DNA of 34,352 bases from the NCBI GenBank assembly GCA_002869895.2, contig NEWP02000003.1, positions 25,028 to 59,379 of the forward strand, given 5' to 3'. The notes beneath the pieces were generated by a model, which searched no databases, was not told the DNA's origin, and saw only the letters and a list, made by a program, of their open reading frames with translations. Each line of letters opens with the position of its first letter. Within the stretch, counting starts at the first letter, position 1. Positions 6,245-23,644 of the stretch are shown here, one piece after another. The stretch comes from Nitrospira sp. CG24E. Lineage in GTDB: Bacteria; Nitrospirota; Nitrospiria; Nitrospirales; Nitrospiraceae. The position numbers and the translations under genes were made by a program.

Positions 6245-6275
6245 AAGGACGTAAAACGTAAAGCGTAAGATGTGA
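6245..6275. repeat. Short ACGTAAA/GCGTGAG-type repeat
   Basis: Near-tandem units ACGTAAA, ACGTAAA, GCGTAAG lie just upstream of the exported protein gene. Related GCGTGAG-type runs occur at 12130-12150, 23640-23665 and 24436-24450. All are intergenic or at gene edges. Confidence 0.5.
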
Positions 6276-6518: not shown

Positions 6519-6559
6519 GATCGGATAAGAAGCGCGTACTCAAGGTCGGGCTAGATCAC

Positions 6560-6581
6560 AATACGAAAGCTTCCTCGTATT
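6560..6581. promoter_or_regulatory. Inverted repeat AATACGA-N8-TCGTATT
   Basis: Perfect 7-bp arms with an 8-base loop lie 93 bases before the start of the next plus-strand gene. The following CACCTTTTTC resembles a weak U-run, so this could be a small terminator or an operator. Neither is certain. Confidence 0.4.
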
Positions 6582-6673
6582 CACCTTTTTCATATATTCA
6601 ATGAGATACACACGGGCGGCAATGAGCGTGTGCTCCGACACCGGTGTTGCTTTATGGAGCAGAGGAGGTGCGG

Positions 6674-7189
6674 ATGTGCATGTTAGAGGATGAGCTGAGC
6701 ATCGACCTGGCGACTCGATTGCGGGCGATGCACAGAGTCCTTGACTGTATCGTTCCTGATCCGCCTACCAAGGTCGTTGATGAGGTGATCAACATAGTGT
6801 TGGGGGCAGTTGGGCGGCAGGCGATGACGCAAGCTGTCACGATCCTCGAAGAAGTGGTGAACAGCAATTCATATTGGTTGAGAGGGTATCTGTTGCTCGC
6901 CACCATCTATCCGTACTCCCTAAACGCCGAACAGGCCATCGCAACAGCGGAGAAAGGTCTCGCCGCATGCGCCATGGGCCTTCGCCTATTCACTGCGCCA
7001 AAGGGGGTCGAATCGGTAGAACAGATCAAGGCGCATGTCGTGCACAGTCGCATTCGAACCCCAGTGGAACGGTTCAGACGATATGAACGTATGTTTCGGC
7101 ATCGGTTGGCGACGCTTCAGATCCGCTGCGGTAATCTCGATGGAGCCATTGAACAGTGGTCTGCCATCGAAAAGGTGCCTTGCGTCTAA
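6674..7189 (+). CDS. TPR-like helical protein, 171 aa
   Basis: The protein is all-helical. It contains one clear tetratricopeptide-like pair: SYWLRGYLLLATIYPYSLNAEQAIATAEKGLAAC (about residues 74-108) and LATLQIRCGNLDGAIEQWSAIEKV at the end. Such repeats usually mediate protein contacts. The ATG at 6674 is chosen because an AGAGGAGGTG ribosome site lies immediately before it; an upstream in-frame ATG at 6644 has none. There is no signal peptide. Its function is unknown, and its neighbours (an IS630 remnant downstream) give no clue. Confidence 0.6.
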   Translation: MCMLEDELSIDLATRLRAMHRVLDCIVPDPPTKVVDEVINIVLGAVGRQAMTQAVTILEEVVNSNSYWLRGYLLLATIYPYSLNAEQAIATAEKGLAACAMGLRLFTAPKGVESVEQIKAHVVHSRIRTPVERFRRYERMFRHRLATLQIRCGNLDGAIEQWSAIEKVPCV

Positions 7190-7211
7190 AGAAGGATGGA
7201 CCAGGAACGAA

Positions 7212-7350
7212 CTAGTGTAGTGTCTCAATAACGGCTTTACGGTGACGGACTTTCCCTAGAATCACGTCGGCGGTTTTGGTCCACACAAAGGGTTTGGGGC
7301 TCTTGTTGTTGAGCCGGATGAACGCGTTGATGTGCGCGAACTTTCGCAAC
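7212..7350 (-). mobile_element. IS630-family transposase 3' remnant
   Basis: Read on the minus strand, the segment ends in INAFIRLNNKSPKPFVWTKT, then ADVILGKVRHRK, then a stop. NxSPKPFVWT with a following AxxILxKV is the conserved C-terminus of IS630-family (DDE) transposases. Only about 45 residues remain. The catalytic DDE residues and both terminal repeats are missing, so it is inactive debris. Its stop lies 23 bases after the TPR-like gene. Confidence 0.8.
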
Positions 7351-7394
7351 GAGATACTGGTCTGATTCACAGACAAATACAGGAGGCGTCACGC

Positions 7395-7583
7395 ATGAAA
7401 CATTCTCCCTGTTGGTCAAACGATAACCGGGCAAGAGCGATGAAATATTGCGACCGGTGCGCCTGCCGCTCCATAGCACTCTTCTATGACGACCTCACGT
7501 TGCAGGAACTTTGTCAGGAGTGCTGCGAGCGGTTGAAACGCAAGCGTGACATGGCTCCCCGTCGAGTGGACTTGAAGGTGTGA
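7395..7583 (+). CDS. Small Cys-rich protein, 62 aa
   Basis: An AGGAGG site at 7381-7386 precedes an ATG at 7395. The product has six or more cysteines: one near the start (SPCW), then YCDRCACRS, then ELCQECCERLKRK. The paired CxxC motifs suggest a zinc ribbon or a small metal-binding protein. The tail is basic (RLKRKRDMAPRR). I cannot assign a family. It sits between the IS630 remnant and the kinase gene. Confidence 0.6.
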   Translation: MKHSPCWSNDNRARAMKYCDRCACRSIALFYDDLTLQELCQECCERLKRKRDMAPRRVDLKV

Positions 7584-7864
7584 GAGGGGCCGCCGACCGT
7601 TACGGATCTTCCGGCGGAACTTGGCATAGCCTGGACCCGGGTCTGTGAGAGAATTTCCTTCGGAGTCTCTGCTCGAAAGATGAACCCCTGCTGCGGCATC
7701 CGTCACGGACTTTCCTACCCCGGTGAATAGGTCGATTGTCGCGTCACGATAGGATGATGTTGATCGGCCGGGCGATTCCGCCGGGTGGTTCAGAGTGCTC
7801 GGTATACAGCCTTGACTCTGCGTGTTAGGATATTGGGTCGTTATACTTCTGACGTGATGCCGGG

Positions 7865-9262
7865 ATGTTTAGACCTAATCCAGAATCCACCTTCTTCCGA
7901 AGAATCCCCTATCGGCTCATTGCATCCGTCCTTGTGATTCTGGCATTAGTTATCTGCGTTATTTTGTTCTTTAGTCTGGAACGGGAAAAATTCCTCCTGC
8001 AGGATTTCGCTCAAGGCAAGACGGCTCCCACGGAGCTATTCCCGGCTCTCTGGCAGTCCCGCAGCGACCTGATCGTTGTGACGCTCCTCGTATTTTTGGT
8101 GAGTGCAATCGGAATCGCGGCGATCATCACCTTCCTCCACTACGACAGCACCAAACGGACCCTCGAAGAAGTGAAAGGGCTGGCGCGAAACATCCTACAG
8201 AGCGTTCCGACCGGCGTGCTCACGATAACTCCTAGCGGATTGATCACGGCGGTCAATCCGACGGCGGAGACAGTCCTCAAACGATCGGCGGCTGATTTGC
8301 TCGGGAATTCTTACGAATCCGTATTTGCCGAGGGAGAGACCATCCGGGCGGTGCTTGAAGGGGCACTCAGGCATCACCAGTATGTCAGTCAGAAAGATTT
8401 GCCCTATGAGAGCCAGGACCGGACCCCGCACACCATCCGAGTGAGCACGGCCGAGCTCACAGGGGACGATGCGGAACCGGACGGTGTCATCCTGCAGGCT
8501 CAGGATGTCACCGACTGGCTTGCGCTCGAGCAACGAGTCCGCATCGCGGATAAGCTGGCCGCATTACACACGTTGTCGGCGGGAGTGGCCCATGAGTTGC
8601 GGAATCCCCTGAGTGCCATGGACTTGAATCTCCACCTCTTGGAAGAGGAACTCGGGGAGCGCGCCTCCCTGCCGGTGCAGGGAGCGCGTTATCTCCATGT
8701 CTTGAACGCGGAATGCCGCCGTCTCTCAGTCATTCTCGACAACTTTATGAAGTTTGCCCGCCCTGGGTCGGTCGGTCTACATGAAGTGAACATCTCCGCC
8801 CTGATCGAGCACATCATGGCGCTGATGCAATTCGAGGCAGAGGAGCGGAAGATCCGGCTTGAACAGACGATGGAGGAACCGTTGCCGTCCGTTCTGGGCG
8901 ACGAGACGGCCATCAGTCAGGTTCTGGTGAACATTGTCGTCAATGCGTTTCATGCCATGCCGAACGGCGGCCTCTGCCGCGTCGCGGCCGAGGCCCGTCA
9001 CGCCAACGGCACGCGCTGGCTCGTGGTGTCGGTGAAGGACACGGGAATCGGTATCAAAAAAGAAGAGCTCGCGCGGGTGTTTGAACCGTTCTATACGACG
9101 AAGTCCAGTGGAACCGGCCTGGGTCTCGCCATCGCCTATCGCATCATGGAAGATCATGGTGGCACCATCCAGGTATCCAGCACGCCGGGGATTGGTACCA
9201 CCACGATGCTGACGTTTCCTGTTGCAGTCGAGAAGGCGCAGTCCTTGGCGATGATCTCATGA
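7865..9262 (+). CDS. Membrane sensor histidine kinase (PAS, NtrB/AtoS-like)
   Basis: This 465-residue kinase has two membrane segments (about residues 17-37 and 69-91) enclosing a short periplasmic loop of about 30 residues. A PAS domain follows (about 105-220: LQSVPTGVLTITPSGLITAVNP). The HisKA helix is GVAHELRNPLSAMDL with phospho-acceptor H243. The HATPase part has the N box (VVNAFHAMPNGG), G1 (DTGIGIKKEE) and G2 (GTGLGLAIAYRI). The small periplasmic loop suggests sensing through the PAS domain or membrane. Its stop overlaps the start of the sigma54 response regulator, so the two are almost certainly partners. No ribosome site is obvious before the ATG. Confidence 0.93.
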   Translation: MFRPNPESTFFRRIPYRLIASVLVILALVICVILFFSLEREKFLLQDFAQGKTAPTELFPALWQSRSDLIVVTLLVFLVSAIGIAAIITFLHYDSTKRTLEEVKGLARNILQSVPTGVLTITPSGLITAVNPTAETVLKRSAADLLGNSYESVFAEGETIRAVLEGALRHHQYVSQKDLPYESQDRTPHTIRVSTAELTGDDAEPDGVILQAQDVTDWLALEQRVRIADKLAALHTLSAGVAHELRNPLSAMDLNLHLLEEELGERASLPVQGARYLHVLNAECRRLSVILDNFMKFARPGSVGLHEVNISALIEHIMALMQFEAEERKIRLEQTMEEPLPSVLGDETAISQVLVNIVVNAFHAMPNGGLCRVAAEARHANGTRWLVVSVKDTGIGIKKEELARVFEPFYTTKSSGTGLGLAIAYRIMEDHGGTIQVSSTPGIGTTTMLTFPVAVEKAQSLAMIS

Positions 9263-10617
9263 AACCACGCGCGAATATTCTCGTCGTGGATGACGAGATC
9301 AATATCCGTGGAGCGTTGGTCACGATGCTTGAGAAGAAGGGACACCAAGTGCGCGGAGTGGCCACGGCAGAAGAGGGGCTGACGCAACTGGAAGGAATCC
9401 CCGCCGAGTTGGTGATCACCGACCTTCGGATGCCGGGAATTAGCGGTATGGAGTTTCTGCGGTGCCTCAAAGCCACCTGGCCGGATACGGAAGTCGTGGT
9501 GATGACTGCCTACGGGTCCATTGATACGGCAGTCGAGGCGATGCGCTGTGGAGCCTATGACTATCTTACGAAGCCCATCGATCGCGAGCGGTTTCCCATC
9601 GTGATCGACAAGGCGCTGGAGCGGCACGCATTAACGACCGAGAACAAGCAGCTCCGAGATCGCCTCGAGACCAGGACGCGCTTCGATCACATGGTCGGCG
9701 AGACCGAGCTCATGCAGCGGGTCTACAGTCTGGTAGAGATGGTGGCGGACAGCGACGTCACGGTGTTACTCATGGGAGAAAGCGGGACCGGCAAGGAACT
9801 CATCTCCCGGGCGATCCACCATAAGAGCCTCAGAGCCGACGGCCCGTTCATCACGATGAATTGTGGCGCCCTGCCGGACAATCTCTTCGAAAGCGAGTTG
9901 TTTGGCTATGAAAAAGGCGCGTTTACCGGCGCCATGGCGACCAAGATGGGGCGGTTCGAACTTGCCGACGGCGGCACGCTGTTGCTGGATGAGGTAGGTG
10001 AGCTCTCCCTCAAGCCACAAGTTGATTTTCTGCGTGTATTGGAGACGAAGGAATTCAGTCGCTTGGGCGGAACGAAGCTGCTCAAGGTGAATACCAGGAT
10101 CATCGCCGCCACCAATCGTAATCTTGAAGAAGCAGTCAAGCAGGGAGACTTCCGGGAAGACCTCTACTACCGGCTCAATGTCGTGCCGATTCGCCTCCCG
10201 CCGCTCCGTGATCGAGCGGACGATATTCCCCTGCTGGTAGCCCGGTTTCTTGTGGATTGTTCTGCGCAGCATCACCGTGAGCCGAAAGATGTGTCACGGG
10301 AGGCGATGCGGCTCTTGCGGTTGTATGGGTGGCCTGGAAACATTCGCCAGCTCAGGAACCTCATGGAGCGGTTGGTGGTCACGGTGAAAGATACGATGAT
10401 TCAGCCGGAACACTTGCCGGAGGAAATCCAGGCCAGCAAGGAGGACGCGCGTACGATGGTGGTGACTCTGGGGACATCTCTGGATCAACTTGAGCGAGAG
10501 GTGATTCAGCGGACGTTAACAGAAATCACGAACCATCGAGAGAAGGCTGCAAAGCTACTGGGTATCAGTCTCCGAGCCCTCCAATATAAGATCAAAGAAT
10601 ACGGTATCCGGGACTAA
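9259..10617 (+). CDS. Sigma54-dependent response regulator (AtoC/NtrC type)
   Basis: This 452-residue activator starts in an ATGA overlap with the kinase. Its receiver domain (1-120) has acidic D11/D12, phospho-acceptor D55, T83 and K105. The AAA+ domain follows: Walker A GESGTGKE at 173-180, the sigma54-contact loop GAFTGA at 220-225 and Walker B LLLDEVGE at 241-248. The C-terminus is a Fis-type helix-turn-helix (NHREKAAKLLGISLRALQYKIKEYGI). All residues needed for phosphorylation, ATP use and sigma54 contact are present. It should activate sigma54 promoters when phosphorylated by its partner. Nearby CTGCAA dyads are possible but unproven binding sites. Confidence 0.95.
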   Translation: MKPRANILVVDDEINIRGALVTMLEKKGHQVRGVATAEEGLTQLEGIPAELVITDLRMPGISGMEFLRCLKATWPDTEVVVMTAYGSIDTAVEAMRCGAYDYLTKPIDRERFPIVIDKALERHALTTENKQLRDRLETRTRFDHMVGETELMQRVYSLVEMVADSDVTVLLMGESGTGKELISRAIHHKSLRADGPFITMNCGALPDNLFESELFGYEKGAFTGAMATKMGRFELADGGTLLLDEVGELSLKPQVDFLRVLETKEFSRLGGTKLLKVNTRIIAATNRNLEEAVKQGDFREDLYYRLNVVPIRLPPLRDRADDIPLLVARFLVDCSAQHHREPKDVSREAMRLLRLYGWPGNIRQLRNLMERLVVTVKDTMIQPEHLPEEIQASKEDARTMVVTLGTSLDQLEREVIQRTLTEITNHREKAAKLLGISLRALQYKIKEYGIRD

Positions 10618-10782
10618 GCACACGCTCTATTCAGCCGCTCAATTTGACCCTCCCTCGTGTGACCCGTTGCTCTGCCCGATTCTCACCTTTTTCGTCTGCG
10701 CACTCCCCCCTGCGCTCATCGGCACGGATGATTGTTGAGTATGCCGAAGCCCTGTGTCTGCTTGGCCGGGAGGACCCGCGAT

Positions 10783-10797
10783 CTGCAATTTTTGCAG
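10783..10797. promoter_or_regulatory. CTGCAA-N3-TTGCAG dyad, copy 2
   Basis: A perfect dyad (CTGCAA TTT TTGCAG) preceded by GAT lies 166 bases after the sigma54 regulator gene and before the ISL3 remnant. The flanking GAT is shared with the copy at 11493. No -24/-12 box was found close by. Confidence 0.5.
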
Positions 10798-10876
10798 CAG
10801 TGAGGATCTGTCAGAGAGCAGGATCTACTCCCCACTTCAGAAACACCGTAAGCCTGTAATTCCGGCGCTTTCTGGC

Positions 10877-11393
10877 TTAGCATGGGTAGAGATCGAGCCC
10901 TCCGCAGTGGAAGTAGATGGCCGTCTTGAAGTACTCAAGGCTTTGGACGCCGTACGCCGTGTTCTTGATCTTCTGAATCTGGCTGTTGAGACCCTCGCTC
11001 ATCGCGTTGGTGACCGGATGTTGGTAGTCGGTCAGGATGTTCTCAATGTGCCGACGAATCGTTTCTGCGGCCTTACGCATGGGCGCCAGCCGGCTATGTG
11101 TCGCCCAGAAATCTCACCGCTTCCAGAACGTCCTGCCAGCTGTGGGGTAGACCTAGTACCCCAGACGGCGCAGCGCCTACTTCATGGCTCACGCCCGCCC
11201 AACTTTCAGTTCCTGGTGTATCAACGCGCCACCTACGTCGTATTGACGCCGCCGATCGAGGACCAAGCGCTCGAACAGTAGCGTGAACCACGACCGGGCC
11301 TTCGCGCAATGCGGGCACGTCCACGGCGCGTGCCCCGAATGCTCCGTCACCTCCCTGTGCTTCTTTCCGATTCTTTCTGAAGTTCATTTTCAA
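10877..11393 (-). mobile_element. Decayed ISL3-family transposase
   Basis: On the minus strand two transposase parts survive in different frames. The 3' part reads WATHSRLAPMRKAAETIRRH, then HPVTNAMSEGLNSQIQKIK, ending in YFKTAIYFHCGGLDLYP. The motif TNAxSEGLNSxIQ and the FHCGGLDLYP end are hallmarks of ISL3 transposases. An in-frame stop lies just before this part. The 5' part (about 11200-11385) reads PWTCPHC and WFTLLFERLVLD, similar to the zinc-finger/FTxLFE region of the family. The middle and catalytic region is missing, so the element cannot move by itself. Terminal repeats were not identified with confidence. Confidence 0.8.
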
Positions 11394-11492
11394 ATCTTGC
11401 CCATGTCAGAGTGTCTGATTGCCCGTCAGGCGCTCGACCACACCTCGTTTTTGCATAGAAGCAGAGGCTACACGCCTGCGAAGAGTATAGAT

Positions 11493-11507
11493 CTGCAAAT
11501 AATGCAG
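11493..11507. promoter_or_regulatory. CTGCAA-N3-(A)TGCAG dyad, copy 3
   Basis: This is a near-perfect dyad (CTGCAA ATA ATGCAG, one arm mismatch), again preceded by GAT. It lies 280 bases upstream of the first gene of the 11.8-16.7 kb cluster, within a plausible enhancer distance. The other copies are at 6504 and 10783. Confidence 0.45.
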
Positions 11508-11695
11508 AGGGATCTTCAGCCGCTGCCATACAATCTGCCTTGCTCTTCAGGTCGATGTCGTAAGTCCTCGATTTTCATCGCCACAAGTCCGTCGAGATGG
11601 GCATTCGTCCTGCGGCATCTTCCATGCATTCTTCCTGTTCGAGCCGTGACCATTCGATCGGAGATGGAGGACGTCATATCCAAGAGGGCTGGGCA

Positions 11696-11711
11696 GACCC
11701 AGGACTCCGCC
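11696..11711 (+). repeat. 16-bp direct repeat, copy 1
   Basis: GACCCAGGACTCCGCC occurs here and again at 12323-12338 in the same orientation. Each copy lies 48-62 bases before a start codon (11773 and 12386). Flanks are loosely alike (GGCTGG upstream). A duplicated leader or operator is possible. Confidence 0.5.
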
Positions 11712-11772
11712 GGGTGAGTGATGGAAGACCGGGAGTGATTCTTCACGCCATATCGGATTACAGGGGGAGACC

Positions 11773-12102
11773 ATGAAGACCGTACCGCCACGAACAGCCT
11801 TGGCCTGGGTCCGCATTCCTGATGGCACGAAAGTGAAACACCGGCATGAAGGGCATGTCGGATTCATCGATGGGCTCACCGAGATCGTCAGCGGGCCCAA
11901 CCGGAATCCGGATGGGAAGACGCAATATCGCATGAATATTGGAGCGCCGGATCGGCAGCTCGTGACCGAGGGCGACTTGTCTGTTCTCATCGACGATGAA
12001 GAGATCGTCATCATGCTACGCCAGAAGACACCCTATCGCCGCGCGGTCACACAATTGCTGCATAGTGTGCTGGCCTCGGATCGCTTCGTCAAGCCGGCCT
12101 AA
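11773..12102 (+). CDS. Hypothetical protein, 109 aa, first gene of OFOR-like cluster
   Basis: The gene starts at an ATG with a GGGGGAGA ribosome site. The protein is soluble. Its first half is beta-rich (TALAWVRIPDGTKVKHRHEG, then VGFIDGLTEIVSG); the end is helical (RRAVTQLLHSVLASDRFVKP). The segment RQLVTEGDLSVLIDDEEIVIML resembles nothing I can name with certainty. It is the first of nine closely packed same-strand genes leading to the oxidoreductase-like protein. A CTGCAA dyad and a 16-bp direct repeat lie upstream. Function is unknown. Confidence 0.65.
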   Translation: MKTVPPRTALAWVRIPDGTKVKHRHEGHVGFIDGLTEIVSGPNRNPDGKTQYRMNIGAPDRQLVTEGDLSVLIDDEEIVIMLRQKTPYRRAVTQLLHSVLASDRFVKPA

Positions 12103-12234
12103 CAGCGTGATACTGAATCAGGAGGCAGACCGTGAAGCGTGAGACATGGAGAATGGCATGATCCGATGTTCGGGGTTCGAAGTTCCGAAAACCTCGACCT
12201 CTTCCCCGGCGTGCGCGTGGGAGACTGGTGGCCA

Positions 12235-12249
12235 TTTTCAGCATCCTGC
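12235..12249. repeat. Isolated right end of the CAGGATGCTGAAAA repeat
   Basis: TTTTCAGCATCCTGC matches the right end of the complete element at 33169-33291. No matching left end was found upstream in this intergenic stretch (12103-12385), so this is a solo end. Confidence 0.5.
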
Positions 12250-12322
12250 GAGAGGGCATCATGAGGAGGCCGGTCACAGCACCCAACTCAGCAGATAGCA
12301 GCCAGCAGGACTTGGCTGGACT

Positions 12323-12338
12323 GACCCAGGACTCCGCC
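12323..12338 (+). repeat. 16-bp direct repeat, copy 2
   Basis: This is the second copy of GACCCAGGACTCCGCC, 48 bases before the start of the epsilon-like gene at 12386. It supports the idea that the leader was duplicated when the cluster was assembled. Confidence 0.5.
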
Positions 12339-12385
12339 GTGCGGGAGTATTCACCAACAGCACACAATGCAGAAAGGAACGACTC

Positions 12386-13075
12386 ATGAACCCATTGGAT
12401 AGCGCAAAGCGTGAACGACTGATCGACGTCGGCCCGGCAGGGTTCCATCCGCCCTGTGCGATGCAGCTTGGTGTCACTCATCCCGATTCCGGATTCGGGC
12501 TGCTGTACGGGGACCACGCCCCGGAGGATGAGGTCATCGCTGAGTCCGCAAAGCAACTGTTTACCCGGAAAAATCCCACGATTTTCCCTGGGCCGTTGTA
12601 TCTATGGGCCTGGCATCCGGAATGGATGGCGAAAGGGCAAGCGCTGTTAAAACTTGCTGCGGAGATCCCGGGGGTCATGATCATTCCGATGCCGGACTAT
12701 CGGCCCAAGTATCCCAAGATCGATCCGGAAGAGGTCATCAACCCGAATCATCCGAACCTGACAATTTGGGGAAACAAAATCGAAGTGGCCCTGTTCATCG
12801 GCATTCACTGCCATTACGCCAACCTGGCGTTGCGGATGGTACGGGCCGGAACGAACTGTCTCACGGTTGCCTACTGCCATGACATTCATGAAGACGCGAT
12901 GCTCAGCGTGCAGGATCTCGATGTGAAGAAGATGGACCATGTCATCGACATTTTTCGAACCGTCCGGAAGGAACTGGGCATCGAGATGCCGAAAGACGGG
13001 AAAAATGTCCGGCTGACCGGGACACAGGTTCGCGCGAACCACGGGGTCGAGCGAATGAATCCACAGCCGGCTTAA
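12386..13075 (+). CDS. CO dehydrogenase beta/acetyl-CoA synthase epsilon-like protein, paralog 1
   Basis: This 229-residue protein resembles the 'CO dehydrogenase beta subunit/acetyl-CoA synthase epsilon subunit' family, a DHS-like Rossmann fold. In some chemolithoautotrophs members accompany five-subunit 2-oxoacid:ferredoxin oxidoreductases. Its core is NPTIFPGPLYLWAWHPEW, then IPMPDYRPKYPKIDPEE and NPNHPNLTIW, and finally IGIHCHYANLALRMVRAG. The same blocks occur in the paralog at 16152. An AGAAAGGA site precedes the ATG. It has a roughly 40-residue extra C-terminus (about 190-229) lacking in the paralog. No iron-sulfur motif is seen, only scattered Cys and His (HCHY, AYCHD). A structural or nucleotide-binding role in a complex is inferred. 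Confidence 0.75.
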   Translation: MNPLDSAKRERLIDVGPAGFHPPCAMQLGVTHPDSGFGLLYGDHAPEDEVIAESAKQLFTRKNPTIFPGPLYLWAWHPEWMAKGQALLKLAAEIPGVMIIPMPDYRPKYPKIDPEEVINPNHPNLTIWGNKIEVALFIGIHCHYANLALRMVRAGTNCLTVAYCHDIHEDAMLSVQDLDVKKMDHVIDIFRTVRKELGIEMPKDGKNVRLTGTQVRANHGVERMNPQPA

Positions 13076-13127
13076 AGGCTGCGAGTCCGGCTTGGGAAGG
13101 AACATCAAACAGAACAGGAACACGATC

Positions 13128-13418
13128 ATGGCGGCGAACGCTGAACGCTCGGTGGAACCACCAACACACAGGTACCATACGCCGAGCGAGGAATGGATCG
13201 CACGAATCGGCCGGCTTCAAGATGCCTTGGCGGTTTGTCCAGCGGATATCTCTGCGAGAAGTGAACTGGCGACATTGTTGGAACAACTGGGACAACCGGA
13301 AGAGGCCCTGTGTCATTGGAACGCGGTCGTGGCCTGCGATCCCAACAGTCTGAAGGCTCGAGAAGGGGTTGCTCGATGCCGGCAACGAACCGGGCGACCT
13401 CTGCAGTCCGCTCTGTGA
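13128..13418 (+). CDS. Single-TPR protein, 96 aa
   Basis: The ATG at 13128 follows AGGAACACGATC; an earlier in-frame ATG at 13092 is less likely. After a charged N-terminus, residues about 28-90 form two TPR-like helical pairs: RIGRLQDALAVCPADISARS, then ELATLLEQLGQPEEALCHW and NAVVACDPNSLKAREGVARC. Spacing and the A/L/P positions are typical of TPR. It could scaffold the proteins of this cluster. The stop is 8 bases before the next start, so the genes are co-transcribed. Confidence 0.7.
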   Translation: MAANAERSVEPPTHRYHTPSEEWIARIGRLQDALAVCPADISARSELATLLEQLGQPEEALCHWNAVVACDPNSLKAREGVARCRQRTGRPLQSAL

Positions 13419-13426
13419 GAGGGACC

Positions 13427-13699
13427 ATGCCCACGATCTGGGGCCAGCTCGAGAAAGTAGACGAATTGTTTGCGCGTTCGCCGCATATCAAGGTGAAAAC
13501 ATCATTACCTGGCGGAATCGTCATACGGGTCCGCGCGAACATTGGGGCAGAGACTCTCATCGCCAGAGGAACCGAGTCGGTTGATGTGTCGGGTCTACGG
13601 GAGGGCGAGTTTGTGGAAGTGTCCTATCGGCATGGTAGGGAGGGAATACTGGATGCCGTCACGATCTACGTTCGACCGGAGCAGACCGTCGTGAGCTAG
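13427..13699 (+). CDS. DUF5666-like small beta protein, paralog A
   Basis: The gene starts at 13427 (MPTIWGQLEKVD), behind a GAGAGGGA ribosome site. The 90-residue product is beta-rich with no signal peptide. Its pattern of GQLEKVD..., then VRANIGAETLIARGTESVDVSGLREGEFVEVSY and a final DAVTIYV resembles DUF5666-like (OB/S1-type) domains, in which a small barrel ends in 'G(E/D)xVxV...A..I.V'. It is a tandem paralog of the next gene; both start with x-(T/V)-IWG. Intracellular location and function are unknown. I rate the family resemblance as tentative but the gene as real. Confidence 0.7.
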   Translation: MPTIWGQLEKVDELFARSPHIKVKTSLPGGIVIRVRANIGAETLIARGTESVDVSGLREGEFVEVSYRHGREGILDAVTIYVRPEQTVVS

Positions 13700-13757
13700 C
13701 CCGGGCACGGGCGGTTGAGTCTCACCATTCGTCAGTAGCGTGTAAAGAGGGATCAGC

Positions 13758-14042
13758 ATGTCGGTAATCTGGGGCCATGTCGAGTTGGTCGTGAACCGAT
13801 CGGAAACTCTTCCGATCCTGATCCTGAACACGAGGATATCATTGGGGATTCGCCATACGCAGTGCAACGTGGGAGTGGGTGCCAGGATTTTGAAAGGCTT
13901 TGAGCGGGTGAACCTCGATCAAATTCATCGAGGCGATTTCGTGGTGGTGACTCTTGCGGAGCATACCGGATGTCTGGAAGCCGAAAGGATCGAGGTCATC
14001 ATATTTCAAAAAGATCCGGTGATGGGAGTTGGTGAAGGGTGA
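13758..14042 (+). CDS. DUF5666-like small beta protein, paralog B
   Basis: This 94-residue protein starts MSVIWGHVELV and follows the plan of the preceding gene: VRANIGAETLIARG there corresponds to CNVGVGARILKGFERVNLDQ here, and LREGEFVEVSY corresponds to IHRGDFVVVTL. The pair arose by duplication and has diverged. An AGAGGGATCAGC site precedes the ATG. It carries no catalytic motif I can see. Its place in the cluster, between the TPR protein and the oxidoreductase-like protein, suggests a role as assembly or binding partner, which is inference. Confidence 0.7.
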   Translation: MSVIWGHVELVVNRSETLPILILNTRISLGIRHTQCNVGVGARILKGFERVNLDQIHRGDFVVVTLAEHTGCLEAERIEVIIFQKDPVMGVGEG

Positions 14043-14094
14043 TGCCCACCGATGCCAATCAGTTACGTCCGATGAGCGAAAAGGACCAAGGACT

Positions 14095-14229
14095 ATGACA
14101 GTGGGGAAACTATGGTGGTTCGAACCGGAAGATGCGCAGCAGTTGGTCAACGACGTGCTGAACGACAGTTTCAACCAGTTGCTGCACAGTACCAGAGTGG
14201 AGGGCCACGTAGTCAGGCTTCGCGAGTAG
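14095..14229 (+). CDS. Small hypothetical protein, 44 aa
   Basis: The ATG at 14095 follows AAAAGGACCAAGGACT. The product begins MTVGKLWWFEPEDAQQLVND and has a helical middle (LVNDVLNDSFNQLL). It is too short for a family call. It is in the same orientation and spacing as its neighbours, which supports its being translated, but a chance ORF cannot be excluded. Confidence 0.5.
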   Translation: MTVGKLWWFEPEDAQQLVNDVLNDSFNQLLHSTRVEGHVVRLRE

Positions 14230-14270
14230 GCGGGGTGGGGATCATCATTAACACAACAGAGGAGGAATTC

Positions 14271-14366
14271 ATGGCAGCCAAGCGTAAGGCGGCAGCGAAG
14301 AAATCTAAGCCGACAGGGAAGACATCCAAGAAGACCACCGCAGCGCGGGAAAAGAAGAAAAAGTAA
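14271..14366 (+). CDS. 31-aa Lys/Ala-rich basic peptide
   Basis: An ATG at 14271 follows an excellent ribosome site (AGAGGAGGAATTC). The product is almost only K, A, T, S, R, P and G and resembles the tails of histone H1-like or Lys-rich DNA-binding proteins. With about 15 lysines or arginines in 31 residues it should bind nucleic acid or another acidic partner. The strong translation signal argues against a random ORF. It could also be a basic docking peptide for an acidic protein of the cluster. Function unknown. Confidence 0.6.
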   Translation: MAAKRKAAAKKSKPTGKTSKKTTAAREKKKK

Positions 14367-14382
14367 TCCTGGAACCACCGTC

Positions 14383-14667
14383 ATGCTCTTGAAGAGAGAG
14401 ACCGATGTCCTGGTCGTGCAGTACCCGAGAGGCTGTACGGCGATCGTTTGGTTCGATCCGGACGCAGGGTCGATCACGACGAGTCATGCGGGTCTGCGCG
14501 CCACGCTTCGACGAGGAGTTCAGAGTTGGGAGGGGAGTCTGATCTCGCCCCACGATGGGCATGCCTTTTTGGCTGCGGTGTACGACCATCTGTTTCTCAA
14601 CGGGTATGCCGTCCAGTGGATGAAAGTGACAGCAGTCCTAGAGGTGGAAACTAGGTATCGTGTCTAG
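14383..14667 (+). CDS. Hypothetical protein, 94 aa
   Basis: The protein has a beta-rich N-terminus (ETDVLVVQYPRGCTAIVWFD) and a middle reading LRRGVQSWEGSLISPHDGHAF. A helix follows (LAAVYDHLFLNGYAVQWM). The pattern 'xGxxxSPxDGxAFLxAxxxHLF' recalls a small recurrent uncharacterised domain, but I cannot name it. Its stop overlaps the GTG start of the next gene by eight bases, so the two are translationally coupled. It may therefore be a dedicated partner of the oxidoreductase-like protein. Confidence 0.65.
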   Translation: MLLKRETDVLVVQYPRGCTAIVWFDPDAGSITTSHAGLRATLRRGVQSWEGSLISPHDGHAFLAAVYDHLFLNGYAVQWMKVTAVLEVETRYRV

Positions 14668-16159
14668 TACGAAACAGGTCGATATGGCCCCGTTTTCAGC
14701 ATGGCTTCCTGCGCATCCCAATCAGGATTTCGATCTGGCGGTGAAGTTCGTCGGGAGAAGCGCATCGGGTCTCATCGATGAACTTGCGCCCATCGTCCAA
14801 GCCTTGATCCTTCACGGTTGCCAGGTGATGGTTCAGACCGGCAGGCTGAATGGTGGTACAGGGCACTTGGTGCTGCGTCTCAGAATCGCGTCTCGCCCCT
14901 TCTATTCGATGGGGCATGGATGCGATGTGGTCGTATATCTGGATCAGGACCCTCCTGAATTCTGGCGATTCGGTCTGCAGCCGGGCAGCGTGCTTGTCTG
15001 GGAGCCGTCTGAACAGTTGCGTCTTCACCCTCTCCTGCCTGACGGGATCATTGCCTACTCGGTTCCTCTCCGGGAACTGAACGCGCAGTACAGCCAGGAA
15101 ACATGGGGAAAAGGGTTTGTGGCAATGGGAGTGCTGGCCCAGCTGCTTGGCTTTTCCGAGGAGGCCCGGCGGGTCTGTCTGAAGTCCCTCCCAGCACCCC
15201 GTTTGTTCGACAGCGGATATCAGTTCGCGTCCCGCTCGCTCGTCAAGCATGACATCTATTCCCTTCCACTCGCCACGCGCGGGGATGCGCGGGTCGTACT
15301 GAGTCCGGAGAACGCTGTGAAGCTCGGGTTTGCCGCGAGTCACTGCGAGTCTGGAACGGACTGCGCCGGCGAGCTGGAACGATCACCGACACAGTGGATA
15401 GCCAGACACCTCGCTATGGCTGACAAGATGGTCTCGGTGCTGCACAGCGAGCAGTTTCCAGACGTCCAGGCCTATCGAGGCCCGCAGGGGAAAGTCTTCG
15501 CGCTGTTTCGTGGAGATGATGCCTCGATCTTGGCCTCGCTGAATAGCTGTTCCAATCCGAGAATCCTTGTCGCGGCTGATGCGGTCGACGCATTGCGACT
15601 GTTGGTCGTCGGGCATCGATTGATCGAGGCGAACCGGGCCGGGGTGGTGGGAGTCGTGGTCGAAGAAGCCCTCACGGCACGTCTCGAAAGTGTCTGGGTC
15701 GGAGCATTGGCAGCGGCCAGGAGCGGGAAAAAAGCGGATGCCGCAGATGGAATCGACGGAGCAGCAGAAGATGGGACCGCGACCATGCGGGCCGAGCGTG
15801 AGGGGGAGGACGACGCGGAGGTCGGATTTATCGCCTGGGGGGCGACCCAAGGTGTAGTTCGTGACGCACTGACGCTTTGCCGGAATCTCGGCATGAGCGT
15901 AGCCGCTTTGTATCCCAAGCAGATTGTACCGTTGCCGGTGGCGCAGTTGGAGTTCTTCGCTGGTAGCGTAAAACGCGTGGTGGTGGTGGAGTCCGGTCAG
16001 ACGAGGGAGCATGCGGATCGCATCGAGGGGGCCTGCTCATTTCGACTCTCTGTGGTCATGCCGGATAAGGGGACGACCCTGACGCCGATGGACTTGTTTA
16101 TGAGGGAAAACCTTGGAGCAACAGACGACAACCAATCGAAAGGAGTCCAGGATGAGTGA
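14660..16159 (+). CDS. OFOR alpha/gamma-like protein (2-oxoacid:ferredoxin oxidoreductase family), divergent
   Basis: This 499-residue protein resembles a fused gamma-alpha subunit of 2-oxoacid:ferredoxin oxidoreductases. Residues about 28-180 fit the gamma domain (VKFVGRSASGLIDELAPIV, then a DVVVYLDQ strand). Residues 215-345 fit a degraded alpha N-domain (ENAVKLGFAASHC). Residues 386-450 fit alpha domain II (VGFIAWGATQGVVRDALTL, then MSVAALYPKQIVPLPVAQLE, then KRVVVVESGQ). A low-complexity acidic linker (about 352-385) separates the last two. No TPP-binding beta subunit or ferredoxin is encoded in the window. The alpha motif that normally follows EA..GA..AGC is poorly kept, so catalysis is doubtful. 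The GTG start overlaps the previous gene, and the stop overlaps the next. Confidence 0.65.
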   Translation: MSSTKQVDMAPFSAWLPAHPNQDFDLAVKFVGRSASGLIDELAPIVQALILHGCQVMVQTGRLNGGTGHLVLRLRIASRPFYSMGHGCDVVVYLDQDPPEFWRFGLQPGSVLVWEPSEQLRLHPLLPDGIIAYSVPLRELNAQYSQETWGKGFVAMGVLAQLLGFSEEARRVCLKSLPAPRLFDSGYQFASRSLVKHDIYSLPLATRGDARVVLSPENAVKLGFAASHCESGTDCAGELERSPTQWIARHLAMADKMVSVLHSEQFPDVQAYRGPQGKVFALFRGDDASILASLNSCSNPRILVAADAVDALRLLVVGHRLIEANRAGVVGVVVEEALTARLESVWVGALAAARSGKKADAADGIDGAAEDGTATMRAEREGEDDAEVGFIAWGATQGVVRDALTLCRNLGMSVAALYPKQIVPLPVAQLEFFAGSVKRVVVVESGQTREHADRIEGACSFRLSVVMPDKGTTLTPMDLFMRENLGATDDNQSKGVQDE

Positions 16160-16727
16160 GTATGAAATGACCGTTGGTCCGGAAGGGTATTTGGCCACTC
16201 CCGTTTCATCACGGGGGGTCGTACTGCCGTCGAAGGGGGAAGGCCTTGTCTTGGGGAAGATCGTCCCTGAGCAACAGGCGATTGACGAGGCCGCGCGGCG
16301 GCTTCTCAACGCCAAGAATCCCACAATTTTTCCAGGACCGTTGGTGCTGTGGGCCTGGAATGAACAGGCCAAGCAAGAGGCTAAAGTCATCAAGGCATTG
16401 GCCCAGGCGATCCCGGCCAAGCTCATTCCAATGCCGGATTACCGTCCGAAGTACCCGAAGATTGAACCGGAGAAGGAAATCAACCCGAACCATCCGAATC
16501 TGACCATCTGGCAGAACAAGATCGATGTCTGTCTCTTCGTCGGTGTCCATTGCCACCAATCCAATATCGCGTTGAAGATCATCCGTGGCGGGGCCAACTG
16601 TTTCACCATCGCGCTTTGTACCTTCAATGGCGATGACGAGGCACACATCACGATCCGTGACCTAACAGCCGCTACGATTCAGCGTATAGTAGATGCGGTT
16701 GAAAGGTTGAAGGGAACGAGACCCTAG
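16152..16727 (+). CDS. CO dehydrogenase beta/acetyl-CoA synthase epsilon-like protein, paralog 2
   Basis: The ATG at 16152, behind AGGAGTCCAGG, overlaps the end of the previous gene by eight bases; an upstream ATG at 16113 is rejected. The 191-residue product shares long blocks with the protein at 12386: NPTIFPGPLVLWAWNEQ, IPMPDYRPKYPKIEPEK, NPNHPNLTIW, VGVHCHQSNIALKII. The conserved HCH and the PGP/DYRPKYPKI motifs suggest a fixed nucleotide- or partner-binding site. It lacks the long C-terminus of paralog 1. Its overlap with the alpha/gamma-like gene makes it the best candidate for a direct subunit of that protein. Confidence 0.75.
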   Translation: MSEYEMTVGPEGYLATPVSSRGVVLPSKGEGLVLGKIVPEQQAIDEAARRLLNAKNPTIFPGPLVLWAWNEQAKQEAKVIKALAQAIPAKLIPMPDYRPKYPKIEPEKEINPNHPNLTIWQNKIDVCLFVGVHCHQSNIALKIIRGGANCFTIALCTFNGDDEAHITIRDLTAATIQRIVDAVERLKGTRP

Positions 16728-20180: not shown

Positions 20181-21560
20181 ATGACCGAAGAATGGGGTGC
20201 AATTCTCGTCGTCGATGACGATGGGGAGATGCGGGAGCTAGTGCATGATGTCCTCAAGGACCGCGGGCATCAGGTCACGACGGCGGGGAGCGGACAAGAG
20301 GCCTTGACGCTGTTGACCGAGCAGGACCATGCCGTCGTGTTGACCGATTTACGAATGAAGGGGATGTTGGGGACGGAACTGCTCGCGGAGATCAGGCGTC
20401 TGTATCCGGACATCGGGGTCATCCTCATGACCGCCTTTGGGTCGGTGGATACGGCAGTCGAGGCTATGAAGCGAGGCGCGAGCGACTACTTGACCAAGCC
20501 TGTGAAAAACGATGAGTTGGTTCGCGTGGTGGAACGGTGCATCCGTGAAGCATCGCTACGACGTGAGGTGAACAGGCTCCGGCGCGAGATCCATAAGGAA
20601 TACAGTTTTCATCAAATCATCGGCAAGAGCAAACCGATGCAGGAGATATTCGACTTGATCCGGCGCGTGGCCGACAGCCCGACGAATCTGTTGATCACCG
20701 GAGAGAGCGGGACCGGCAAGGAGTTGGTGGCCAAGGCCATCCATTACAATAGCGATCGCCGGGATGCGCCGTTTGTCCCTGTCAACTGTGCGGCCATTCC
20801 GGAACAGCTGCTCGAAAGCGAGCTGTTCGGTCATATGCGAGGCGCCTTTACGGATGCGAAGGTGGATAAGCGGGGCCTCTTTGAAGAGGCGCAGAAGGGC
20901 ACGCTATTTCTCGATGAGATCAGTGAACTGCCGTTGCTGTTGCAGGCTAAGATCTTGCGGGCGATCCAGGAGAAAGAGATTCGTCGTGTGGGAGCCAACA
21001 AACCGATCTCCGTCGATGTGCGCATCATTGCGGCGACGAATCTCAACCTGACGGAAGAGGTCAAGACAAAGCGTTTTCGGGAAGACTTGTATTATCGCCT
21101 CAATGTCATCGAGCTATCCCTCCCTCCCCTGCGTGAGCGTCGGGAGGACATTCCGCTGCTCGTGAACGTCTTCATGAAGAAGTGTGCGGAGTCTCGCGGG
21201 AAACAGGTACAGGGTGTGAGCGAATCTGCGCTGGCCATGTTGGTGGATTATGCCTGGCCTGGCAACGTGCGGGAATTGGAAAATGTGATCGAGCGGGCCG
21301 CCACACTCAGCCGAAGCGAGCAGATCGTTCCCGACGATCTGCCGTCAACGATTCAAGGGGCTCGCGGCGATCGGCGGGTGCTCGACGATGCGGCTGAGCG
21401 GACCCTACGGCTGGATGAAGTGGAAAAAGAATATATTCTCAAGATCCTCGAGAAGACCGGCGGCAATAAGTACCAGGCGGCTCATACGCTCGGAATCGAT
21501 CGCAAGACGCTCTATCGGAAGCTCGCCGAAATCGAAGGCAAGCCTCACCCTGAAGAATGA
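20181..21560 (+). CDS. Sigma54-dependent response regulator (AtoC/ZraR type)
   Basis: This 459-residue protein has a receiver domain with D12-D14, D56, T84 and K106, then an AAA+ domain with Walker A GESGTGK (174-180), sigma54 loop GAFTDA and Walker B TLFLDEIS. The C-terminal Fis-type helix-turn-helix is GGNKYQAAHTLGIDRKTLYRKL. The loop carries D in place of the more usual G (GAFTGA), a variant seen in working members, so activity is likely. AAAGGAG lies before the ATG at 20181. The 3-PAS kinase gene follows after 281 bases on the same strand, a probable partner. Confidence 0.94.
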   Translation: MTEEWGAILVVDDDGEMRELVHDVLKDRGHQVTTAGSGQEALTLLTEQDHAVVLTDLRMKGMLGTELLAEIRRLYPDIGVILMTAFGSVDTAVEAMKRGASDYLTKPVKNDELVRVVERCIREASLRREVNRLRREIHKEYSFHQIIGKSKPMQEIFDLIRRVADSPTNLLITGESGTGKELVAKAIHYNSDRRDAPFVPVNCAAIPEQLLESELFGHMRGAFTDAKVDKRGLFEEAQKGTLFLDEISELPLLLQAKILRAIQEKEIRRVGANKPISVDVRIIAATNLNLTEEVKTKRFREDLYYRLNVIELSLPPLRERREDIPLLVNVFMKKCAESRGKQVQGVSESALAMLVDYAWPGNVRELENVIERAATLSRSEQIVPDDLPSTIQGARGDRRVLDDAAERTLRLDEVEKEYILKILEKTGGNKYQAAHTLGIDRKTLYRKLAEIEGKPHPEE

Positions 21561-21841
21561 CCGCCTCTGTCCGGTCGTCTGGCTGTATCATTCTTGACGG
21601 TTCGTGATGCAATGGCTGGCTGGGCGCGACAAACGTGACCGGAAGGCTGACGGGGGACAGGCTGAAGATCAAGGATCAGATAGCAGAACGCTTCAGCCTT
21701 CGCCTGATTCATCCGTCGCGCTTTTCCCGCCAGCCTTGCCCGTCTCACTTGAGTCAAGCATCGGTGAGTGCAGCTGACGCGTTCATGCATAATGAGGGCT
21801 GAGAGCGATCCACTATAAACCAGCGCAGGAAAGGCTCACTT

Positions 21842-23644
21842 GTGCAGAAACAAATTGAAAACATTTTCGAAGCATCAGCGGACGCGATCGGCTACGCCGC
21901 GCTCGATGAGGCCATCCTCCTCGTCAATCGTGCATTTACCGAACTGACTGGGTTCTCGAGGGAAGAGTTGCTTAGGATGAATGCGCGGGACTTGATTCCC
22001 GATCAACAGAAAGAGAAGCGGGACCGCCTCGTGGCTCAAGTCCTCCAGACCGGCAAACCGGTTGAATACGAAATCGACTACCTCCGGAAAGACGGCTCTC
22101 AGGTCCCCGTGTCTATCAACGTATTTGCAGTCAAGGGGGATGATGGGGCGCCGATCGGTCTTGCGGCGATCGTACGCAACCTTGCTGAGCGCAAGAAGGC
22201 GAACGAATTGTTTCACCTATTGGTCGAATCTGCTCCGAACGGGATGCTGATGGTGAATGAGAAAGGCGCCATCCTCATGGTGAATCGGCAGATTGAGCAG
22301 CAGTTCGGCTATGATCGTACGGAACTGATTGGGCAATCCGTTGAAGTGCTCGTGCCTCAGCGCGTTCGATCTGCTCACGCCGAGGACCGGGGCGAATACG
22401 TTGCCCATTCGGACCTTCGTGCCATGGGAAAAGGGCGGGACCTCTATGGTGTGCGAAAAGACGGACAGGAGTTTCCTTTGGAGATCGGCCTCAACCCGAT
22501 CCAAACCCCGAATGGCAAGAGAGTGCTGGCTTCTGTCGTGGATATCGGTGAGAGAAAACGGGTAGAACGGATGCTTCAGAAGGAGCGGGACTTCAGCGAC
22601 GCCGTACTGGAGACAGCCGGGACGCTTGTGGTGGTGCTGGATCGGGAGGGGCGGATTCAACAATTCAATCGCGCCTGCGAACAGACGACCGGCTACTCCT
22701 CTGAAGAGGTGATGGGCCGACATATCTGGGACCTGTTCTTGATTCCCGATGAAGTCGATGGAGTGAAGGCAGTGTTCGAGCGGGTCCGGGGCGGCGAATC
22801 GCGCTGCGATTATGAAAATTACTGGAAAGGAAAGGGTGAGGCCCTGAGACGAATCTCCTGGTCGCATACGGTGCTGAGGGATTCCAGCGGCACCGTCGAA
22901 TATATTGTCAAAGCCGGGCTCGACATTACTGACTTCAAACGCATGCAGGAACAGCTCCGGTGGACGGAGCGGGTTGCGGAGCTTGGGACACTCGCCTCCG
23001 GCATGGCGCACGAAATCGGGACGCCGATGAACGTGATCCTCGGGCGCGCGGAATATCTCCTTCAACGCACGGTCGATGAAGGGATGAAGAGGGGGCTTGC
23101 CACGATCGTCACGCAGGTTGAACGAATCACTAAGGTGATGAACCAGCTCCTGGCTTTTGCCAGGCGAAAGACACCGGAGCGGCGGGCCGTCGATCTCGGC
23201 GAGATCGTGGACGAGAGCCTGGAGATGTTCGAGGAACGGATCGCTCAAAGTCGGATCACAGTCGATAAGACGATTGAGCCGTCATTACCTCCCGTGCTCG
23301 CCGATCGGGACCAACTGATCCAAGTGCTCATCAATCTTGTGATGAATAGTATCCATGCGATGCCGGAAGGGGGACAGCTCAGCTTGAGCCTTACTTGTGA
23401 GGGCAGCCACGTCTGCCTCCGCCTGTCCGATACAGGCCATGGGATACCGGAAGAGATCCGTTCGAAAGTATTCGAGCCATTTTTCACGACGAAAGATTTT
23501 GGCAAAGGGACCGGTCTTGGCCTCACGGTCGTGAAGGGTATCATCGAGGAACATGGTGGGACCATTTCTGTAGAGAGTGTTGTCGGCAAGGGCACGACGT
23601 TTTGGCTCCGATTCCCTCTTGACAAAGCCTCGTTGAAAACGTGA
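21842..23644 (+). CDS. Soluble PAS-PAS-PAS histidine kinase
   Basis: This 600-residue kinase has no membrane segment. Three PAS domains lie at about 1-118, 122-242 and 248-368, each closed by a short helix (ERKK, ERKR, DFKR). The HisKA site GMAHEIGTPMNVILGRAEYLL has phospho-acceptor H390. The HATPase boxes are NLVMNSIHAMPEGG, DTGHGIPEE and GKGTGLGLTVVKGI, all intact. GTG start at 21842 behind AGGAAAGG. It follows the sigma54 response regulator by 281 bases and is its most likely partner. The HEIGTPMN core is shared almost exactly with the 775-residue kinase at 27700-30027. The signal is cytoplasmic and unknown. Confidence 0.93.
   Translation: MQKQIENIFEASADAIGYAALDEAILLVNRAFTELTGFSREELLRMNARDLIPDQQKEKRDRLVAQVLQTGKPVEYEIDYLRKDGSQVPVSINVFAVKGDDGAPIGLAAIVRNLAERKKANELFHLLVESAPNGMLMVNEKGAILMVNRQIEQQFGYDRTELIGQSVEVLVPQRVRSAHAEDRGEYVAHSDLRAMGKGRDLYGVRKDGQEFPLEIGLNPIQTPNGKRVLASVVDIGERKRVERMLQKERDFSDAVLETAGTLVVVLDREGRIQQFNRACEQTTGYSSEEVMGRHIWDLFLIPDEVDGVKAVFERVRGGESRCDYENYWKGKGEALRRISWSHTVLRDSSGTVEYIVKAGLDITDFKRMQEQLRWTERVAELGTLASGMAHEIGTPMNVILGRAEYLLQRTVDEGMKRGLATIVTQVERITKVMNQLLAFARRKTPERRAVDLGEIVDESLEMFEERIAQSRITVDKTIEPSLPPVLADRDQLIQVLINLVMNSIHAMPEGGQLSLSLTCEGSHVCLRLSDTGHGIPEEIRSKVFEPFFTTKDFGKGTGLGLTVVKGIIEEHGGTISVESVVGKGTTFWLRFPLDKASLKT

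Follow-up and report, generated by a model that had tools for sequence, protein, structure and literature searches.

Why does a Nitrospira genome keep, on a single strand, a fused OFOR-like protein with a protein resembling the CODH epsilon subunit on either side, when no catalytic beta subunit is encoded beside them? The question is posed by 12386-16727, the core of a unit in the window, which is the whole 34,352-nucleotide stretch of Nitrospira sp. CG24E analysed here. The features of the unit are collected in Table 1.

Organization of the locus

The (+)-strand genes of this cassette are tightly packed, with 8-nt overlaps at P94/GA499 and GA499/delta2. This agrees with the original prediction of a compact run of nine genes from 11773 to 16727, from which two corrections depart: the first gene lies outside the unit, and the true start of the unit is further upstream, at a previously missed two-component system (7865-10617) that adjoins the cassette in relatives. 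The excluded gene, a 109-aa ORF, has no match in 12 related loci and is located within a 627-bp insert that carries a 26-bp direct repeat at both ends (11687 and 12314), and it is therefore not counted as part of the unit. Because 23 of 175 Nitrospiraceae genomes carry the cassette in an intact or nearly intact form, the grouping is not due to chance. The dN/dS values of delta1 (0.07-0.21), delta2 (0.04-0.12), GA499 and P94, which are all well below 1, indicate that the cassette is under purifying selection in the minority of genomes that retain it, with GA499 less constrained than the deltas.

Among the small proteins, the predicted TPR protein was recovered by Pfam. The two genes that follow it encode paralogues, as proposed, and their assignment to DUF5666 was abandoned because neither matches that family. 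A relative of P94 is also found upstream of Ehr genes in another family (f8).

Table 1. Features of the cassette, its regulator and its upstream region.
Feature	Position	Strand	Basis or remark
NtrB-like sensor kinase, PAS/HisKA/HATPase	7865..9262	+	Pfam; adjoins cassette in relatives
NtrC-type sigma-54 activator, Response_reg/Sigma54_activat/Fis HTH	9259..10617	+	Pfam; adjoins cassette in relatives
Palindrome TCTGCA-AATAA-TGCAGA, candidate activator-binding site	11492..11508	+	conservation
-24/-12-like element CGGCATCTTCCATGCA	11613..11628	+	121 bp after palindrome start; conserved spacing
109-aa ORF	11773-12102	+	window-specific insert, outside unit
delta1, OFOR delta homologue, POR type, CODH/ACS epsilon fold	12386..13075	+	PF02552, tree, dN/dS
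TPR protein, 96 aa	13128..13418	+	Pfam; kept in 12 loci
Small protein, 90 aa (first DUF5666 candidate)	13427..13699	+	no Pfam match; in most cassette loci
Paralogue of the 90-aa protein, 94 aa	13758..14042	+	weak constraint, dN/dS about 0.8
44-aa ORF	14095..14229	+	conserved in near relatives only
31-aa Lys/Ala-rich ORF	14271..14366	+	conserved in near relatives only
P94, 94 aa, family unassigned	14383..14667	+	locus comparison
GA499, KorA-type pseudoenzyme of fused gamma-alpha OFOR build with an eroded TPP domain	14660..16159	+	Pfam, profile, alignment, fold
delta2, OFOR delta homologue, OGOR-type lineage	16152..16727	+	PF02552, fold comparison, tree, dN/dS

An eroded oxidoreductase

GA499 had been read as a fused gamma/alpha OFOR protein with a degraded alpha part, and the homology searches bear this out. 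Its family profile matches the fused gamma-alpha KorA of 6n2n over its length (9.8e-91), its structural model superimposes on 6n2n_A with a Z of 24.5 over 413 residues, and Pfam finds PFOR_II above the cut-off (4e-6) together with a weak POR gamma match, so that the homology and fold of the gamma and alpha C-terminal parts are kept. Pfam finds no match in GA499 to POR_N, the TPP domain of the alpha subunit; about 105 residues are missing relative to an intact homologue, the KorA of G117; and the YPITP motif has been replaced by a Cys-containing loop, with C229 and C235 conserved instead. GA499 also has no Fe-S motif and is therefore unable to carry electrons itself. The family nevertheless retains 39-89% identity across eight genera.

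The predicted absence of a beta subunit was likewise confirmed: no gene for the TPP-binding PF02775 domain is present in or near the cluster, and the OFOR betas of this genome are encoded on another contig, solely within the two separate operons for its complete POR and OGOR. Neither a complete operon with its beta gene just outside the cluster nor clear catalytic motifs in GA499 were found. GA499 is thus apparently a non-catalytic relative of the CO2-fixing enzymes of Nitrospira. Together with the homology of its neighbours to the delta subunit of five-subunit POR and OGOR, these losses support the suggestion of an OFOR-derived, non-catalytic system tied to enzymes of the reductive TCA cycle; nothing specific was found for the further suggestion of a regulatory complex.

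The flanking delta-type proteins

The description of the flanking pair as CODH-epsilon-like holds for PF02552 (CO_dh epsilon; 5e-35 for delta1 and 3e-41 for delta2) and for the fold (CdhB; PDB 1YTL, 9C0R; Z about 11), but both proteins are closer to the OFOR delta subunit. In a tree limited to Nitrospirota, both cassette deltas cluster with POR/OGOR delta subunits, one of each type being kept, and in two distinct clades delta1 branches with the POR delta from the same lineage. Among solved structures, the CODH epsilon subunit surfaced by fold comparison only, a sequence search of the delta family against solved structures having given no credible match, and Pfam finds no CODH or ACS gene among the cassette genes. 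An identity as CODH/ACS parts was set aside in favour of OFOR delta on the basis of homology and the tree. Catalytic alpha, beta and gamma genes accompany the operon deltas at loci L005 and L006 but not delta1 and delta2.

In one genome, a delta gene lies next to DabB-DabA. This neighbour and the invariant HCH...C...C and MxDYRP residues of the family hint at a carbonic-anhydrase-like role, which is left as speculation because no carbonic anhydrase appears among the fold matches listed.

Linkage to Ehr in relatives

Nine other Nitrospiraceae genomes have enough sequence to show what surrounds the cassette, and in all of them it lies between the NtrBC-type regulator and Ehr, a hydrogenase-4-like membrane complex with HyfB/C/E/F/G/I-like genes that lacks NiFe ligands; HyfB-HyfC-HyfE-HyfF follow the cassette in each. 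Even where the cassette has decayed (G265), the regulator remains on one side and Ehr on the other. A wider survey of gene order in Nitrospirota showed that the cassette recurs and that intact counterparts occupy similar loci in two other families: in G117, G393, G395 and G398, KorA-KorB-delta1-delta2 stand directly upstream of Ehr genes, with a full-length KorA that retains YPITP and a KorB with a GDGD motif and four Cys. Reduced forms, PFOR_II-only proteins sandwiched by two deltas, also occur in G129 and G271. In G271, stand-alone OGOR-type and POR-type delta genes lie immediately 5′ of HyfB. A KorAB of the same genus (G214, contig C171) was set aside because its short contig carries no delta genes and no Ehr.

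Because of the linkage in relatives and the intact OFOR-Ehr loci in other families, gene order and homology identify the cassette as descended, with loss of beta, from an OFOR-Ehr locus. No gene for an Fe-S input subunit was seen around HyfI, and Ehr therefore needs a partner; for another Ehr, formate dehydrogenase has been proposed as such a partner (PMC6349859). The shared operon points to a possible physical connection of Ehr with CO2 fixation.

Regulator and candidate promoter

The adjacent NtrBC pair is predicted to activate transcription of the cassette at a sigma-54 promoter. The candidate activator-binding palindrome is invariant in six close relatives, is preceded by a second, degenerate copy, and stands about 120 bp ahead of the -24/-12-like site before cassette-bearing and cassette-less Ehr loci alike. 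The element CGGCATCTTCCATGCA has four mismatches to the consensus and a score not above chance, so that its main support is conservation and spacing; identification of a sigma-54 site by consensus score alone was rejected, window scores being not above chance.

Possible functions of the cassette

The most likely function of the cassette, judged from gene content and gene order, is to act as a scaffold between Ehr and delta-type subunits of POR/OGOR. An ancestral OFOR would have worked with the Ehr membrane complex, as the loci still co-encoded in other families suggest, and the TPP and beta parts would then have been lost in the cassette lineage. The gamma and alpha C-terminal domains that GA499 has kept may form the platform for assembly of delta1 (POR type) and delta2 (OGOR type), and this non-catalytic scaffold may dock OFOR components, probably the POR and OGOR of the cell, at Ehr. 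Low-potential electrons could thus pass between the docked OFOR and Ehr, with the proton motive force driving reduction of ferredoxin or OFOR through Ehr, or in the reverse direction. This history, from Ehr partner to docking scaffold, is put forward tentatively, as a possibility that falls somewhat short of probable. Points that weigh against it are that GA499 lacks an Fe-S motif and is less constrained than the deltas, that Ehr was not found in this genome, and that the cassette is dispensable, being missing from most genomes with the regulator and decayed in some.

It is doubtful, though conceivable, that delta1, delta2 and GA499 instead assist the assembly, storage or protection of the five-subunit POR and OGOR, which are oxygen-sensitive, with no electron coupling to Ehr. 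Expression in E. coli of the Hydrogenobacter enzyme required a delta subunit, which has no known cofactor motif (Ikeda, 2006, cited in PMC3578206), the cassette keeps one delta of each type, and it is intact in this genome although Ehr was not found. In most Nitrospiraceae, however, two operon deltas alone serve POR and OGOR, and the consistent linkage to Ehr would be left unexplained.

It is unlikely that, once KorB and, in this genome, Ehr had been lost, the cassette became a decaying remnant that does little or nothing here. It is orphaned: Ehr was not found in the window or in the genome as assembled (best HyfB match, 31%), DNA homology to relatives ends at the end of delta2, and transposase-like remnant ORFs and the 627-bp insert separate the candidate promoter from delta1. 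The distribution is also patchy, and the cassette is dispensable because most genomes with the regulator lack it and it has decayed in G070, G145 and G265. Against decay in the window, all main frames are intact there, and the low dN/dS values and the sequence identity kept by the GA499 family point the same way. If the scaffold reading is correct, the cassette in this genome would have a residual role with POR/OGOR only, or be on its way out, because Ehr genes were not found.

A pseudo-OFOR that detects CoA, an oxoacid or the redox state and signals to the NtrBC pair would account for the constant presence of a PAS-domain kinase and activator next to the cassette and for the new Cys pair in GA499. 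This role is improbable; some genomes that lack the cassette still carry the kinase pair, an orthologue of the kinase being present in 71 of 175 Nitrospiraceae genomes as against 23 for the cassette. Although beta subunits are encoded elsewhere in the genome and GA499 keeps its gamma and alpha C-terminal folds, a catalytic hybrid in which GA499 pairs with a POR or OGOR beta is highly improbable, since GA499 has lost YPITP along with much of its thiamine-binding domain and has no POR_N match.

The scaffold reading can be extended to the Ehr of Nitrospiria in general, which would be an OFOR partner: families f4 and f8 would have an ion-coupled OFOR-Ehr system, and Nitrospiraceae a pseudo-OFOR adaptor that joins POR/OGOR to Ehr and so supplies low-potential electrons for CO2 fixation. 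This broader proposal is rather unlikely to hold.

Comparison with known systems

No description of the cassette was found in the open-access literature searched, so that its comparative linkage to Ehr is provisionally a new result. Two questions meet at this locus, namely the role of delta in aerobic five-subunit OFORs and that of the widespread Nitrospira Ehr, and the union of OFOR-derived proteins, POR-type and OGOR-type deltas, an NtrC-type switch and Ehr offers testable pieces for both. As the source of low-potential ferredoxin for the reductive TCA cycle in nitrite oxidisers, a 2M complex I is the current proposal (PMC12342949). The cassette is also a clear stepwise example of the passage from an enzyme to an apparently non-catalytic component.

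GA499 shares the fused gamma-alpha build of the two-subunit KorAB, the 2-oxoglutarate:ferredoxin oxidoreductase of Magnetococcus marinus (PDB 6N2N/6N2O), with a whole-length profile and fold match, but the cassette lacks beta, has an eroded TPP-binding domain, adds two delta proteins, and has a regulator beside it, joined in relatives by Ehr. Delta1 and delta2 are homologous to the delta of five-subunit POR/OGOR (alpha, beta, gamma, delta and epsilon; Hydrogenobacter, Aquifex and Nitrospira), whereas the cassette has no intact alpha, beta or ferredoxin subunit, and relative to those deltas delta2 forms its own lineage and delta1 sister groups. Fold and PF02552 are common to the delta proteins and CODH/ACS epsilon; the delta family differs in its invariant residues, and the cluster in having neither CODH nor ACS. 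In relatives, the cassette sits within the operon of the Nitrospirales Ehr (Ech hydrogenase-related) complex, between the regulator and a hyfB-like gene; the window contains no Ehr genes, and the part of PMC12342949 consulted, which treats this complex, does not mention OFOR-type partner genes. The formate dehydrogenase-Ehr system proposed for Margulisbacteria (PMC6349859) likewise has a soluble oxidoreductase as candidate Ehr partner, whereas the candidate here derives from an OFOR and is apparently non-catalytic in Nitrospiraceae.

Composition of the locus

The source genome is of the Nitrospira type (3.45 Mb, 98% complete), and the gene run considered here is set out in the table; the genes from delta1 to delta2 are referred to as the cassette. 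An ORF at 11773-12102, with which the original prediction opened the cluster, is excluded from the unit because it lies inside a repeat-flanked stretch of 627 bp and has no counterpart in any of 12 related loci. This window-specific stretch (11687-12340), which carries the excluded 109-aa ORF and has a 26-bp direct repeat on both flanks, keeps the candidate promoter and delta1 apart. The DUF5666 assignment of the two small paralogues was not borne out by any Pfam match to that family. Minus-strand ORFs at 10877-11393, which separate the activator gene from the conserved promoter block, look like pieces of an ISL3-type transposase. At 20181-25836, a multi-PAS kinase is encoded between two more sigma-54 activator proteins.

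Features of the gene run, in window coordinates
Feature	Position	Remark
Sensor kinase	7865-9262	First gene of run
NtrC-type activator	9259-10617	
Palindrome TCTGCA-N5-TGCAGA	11492	
-24/-12-like element	11613	
delta1	12386-13075	PF02552 (Pfam)
TPR protein	13128-13418	
Two small paralogues, then two very small ORFs		Between TPR protein and P94
P94 (94-aa protein)	14383-14667	
GA499 (fused gamma/alpha OFOR-like protein)	14660-16159	PFOR_II (Pfam)
delta2	16152-16727	PF02552 (Pfam)

GA499 and the delta proteins

GA499 resembles fused gamma and alpha subunits of 2-oxoacid:ferredoxin oxidoreductases (OFORs). Its Pfam match to gamma is weak and POR_N is unmatched. Its family profile has a full-length match (9.8e-91) to Magnetococcus KorA, itself a gamma-alpha fusion. 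The predicted model (pLDDT 81.7) aligns with 6n2n_A over 413 residues (Z 24.5, rmsd 3.9). Relative to the intact homologue of genome G117, about 105 residues are missing, chiefly from the thiamine diphosphate (TPP) domain; where the YPITP motif would be there is a loop that carries the conserved cysteines C229 and C235, and the gamma Gly-rich motif is likewise absent. The degraded alpha part and the lack of a beta subunit, both proposed originally, are confirmed. Because the TPP domain is eroded, both motifs are gone and no beta gene lies nearby, we infer that GA499 is not catalytic.

Four PF02552 proteins are encoded in the source genome. The other two genes lie on another contig in complete five-subunit-type operons, ordered beta, gamma, ferredoxin-like, delta, alpha (L006) and gamma, beta, alpha, delta (L005), whose identities as pyruvate (POR) or 2-oxoglutarate (OGOR) type are assigned from homology and the literature. 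The subunit named delta of Aquifex five-subunit OFORs is described as like the CODH/ACS epsilon subunit and of unknown function (PMC10052474), and that of the Hydrogenobacter enzyme as required for expression in E. coli (Ikeda 2006, cited in PMC3578206). The label CODH-epsilon-like, given earlier to delta1 and delta2, holds for their fold (1ytl_A, Z 11.1, rmsd 2.8, 124 aligned), which is common to many Rossmann-like domains; their nearer relative is the OFOR delta subunit, and in the tree they group with POR and OGOR deltas. delta1 is the sister of the POR delta from its own lineages, and delta2 falls within the OGOR-delta half, in a group made up of cassette delta2 proteins of four families (support 98/92). 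Invariant in 22/22 deltas (alignment A2) are, among others, M94-x-D96-Y-R98-P, H133-C134-H135, C150 and C156. The H-C-H, the two later cysteines and MxDYRP suggest a metal or ligand site, of which no description was found in the portions of the literature consulted.

Linkage to Ehr and proposed history of the locus

In all nine other Nitrospiraceae genomes with enough downstream sequence, the cassette, preceded by the kinase-activator pair where the contig extends, is followed by a secreted-looking protein, HyfB, HyfC, HyfE, HyfF, usually HyfG and, where the contig extends, HyfI. These genes are those of Ehr, an Ech hydrogenase-related membrane complex, described as present in about half of Nitrospirales and of unknown function (PMC12342949; PMC10284858). 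The HyfG-like protein has matches to the 49-kDa and 30-kDa families of complex I; the three sequences inspected show no CxxC ligand pair, and no ferredoxin-type subunit gene adjoins HyfI at the loci examined. In cassette-less genomes, the kinase-activator pair adjoins a TPR gene and Ehr. G145 has another OFOR set (gamma-alpha-beta) of ordinary appearance ~8 kb downstream of Ehr (L163, 12600-15727). In G249, a DabA-like protein of 1108 aa, identified by eye, is encoded ~4 kb downstream of Ehr HyfI (L165, 4951-8277).

In the source genome, DNA homology to relatives extends no further than 16725, where delta2 ends, the window yielded no remnant of Ehr, and the best HyfB match (only 31%) is taken to be complex I. 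For these reasons the cassette is regarded as orphaned here, unless Ehr is missing from the assembly alone.

In four genomes from two other families (G117 and G393; G395 and G398), an intact set precedes HyfB at the same kind of locus; it consists of a KorA that has YPITP, a KorB that has GDGD together with four cysteines, delta1 and delta2. The alpha C-terminal domain stands alone between two deltas in G129 and G271, and stand-alone OGOR-type and POR-type delta genes lie directly 5' of HyfB in G271. In the simplest history, an OFOR-Ehr locus would first have lost beta and later the TPP domain, with the alpha C-terminal domain and the deltas retained; family f5 and Nitrospiraceae may have undergone their losses independently. 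In family f20, delta genes occur alone beside NuoL/DabB-like genes (L075 of G037, 2023-9510, minus strand; L070 of G019, 8288-13327), in tandem in L070 and apart from OFOR alpha/beta genes, with DabA, an inorganic carbon pump, alongside at one locus.

Regulation, distribution and selection

At many loci, whether or not the cassette is present, the palindrome lies 120-122 bp 5' of a -24/-12-like element, and several have a second palindrome 42-44 bp upstream; for the palindrome, chance counts of at most about 0.14 per region are expected. The -24/-12-like element of the window is not significant when scored alone. Because of the palindrome at a set spacing and the sigma-54 interaction domain (Pfam) of the activator, the kinase-activator pair is predicted to be the likely regulator of the cassette. 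An extra palindrome, TCTGCA-N5-TGCAGG (6503-6519), lies ~125 bp before a 181-aa ORF at 6644 to which no Pfam family matches, and no good -24/-12 site turned up there.

GA499 is present in 23/175 Nitrospiraceae genomes (8/22 genera). In the single phylum surveyed (296-genome sample), the number of PF02552 proteins is two in typical Nitrospiraceae and at least four in most cassette genomes. Approximate pairwise dN/dS values of 0.04-0.12 (delta2), 0.07-0.21 (delta1) and 0.21-0.33 (GA499) point to purifying selection on the main genes, weaker on GA499; one small paralogue gives ~0.8. The cassette is partly broken in three genomes (G070, G145 and G265) and is therefore losable. Two divergent cassettes occur in each of G218 (C16, C113), G376 (C52, C13) and G348 (C84, C61), which may reflect horizontal transfer or MAG contamination, the two being indistinguishable.

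Possible function

All claims on the cassette and locus derive from sequence. Our preferred reading, held tentatively, is that GA499, delta1 and delta2 form a non-catalytic scaffold that would recruit OFOR components to Ehr; electron transfer there, and its direction, are guesses. A role in assembly or protection is rather unlikely. The linkage to Ehr is constant, including stand-alone deltas 5' of HyfB, and one POR-type delta is paired with one OGOR-type delta, both of which favour the scaffold over a pure assembly factor. That the cassette is a remnant is somewhat less likely again. The putative scaffold protein GA499 shares the fused gamma-alpha build of Magnetococcus KorA (6n2n_A) and differs from it in its eroded TPP domain.
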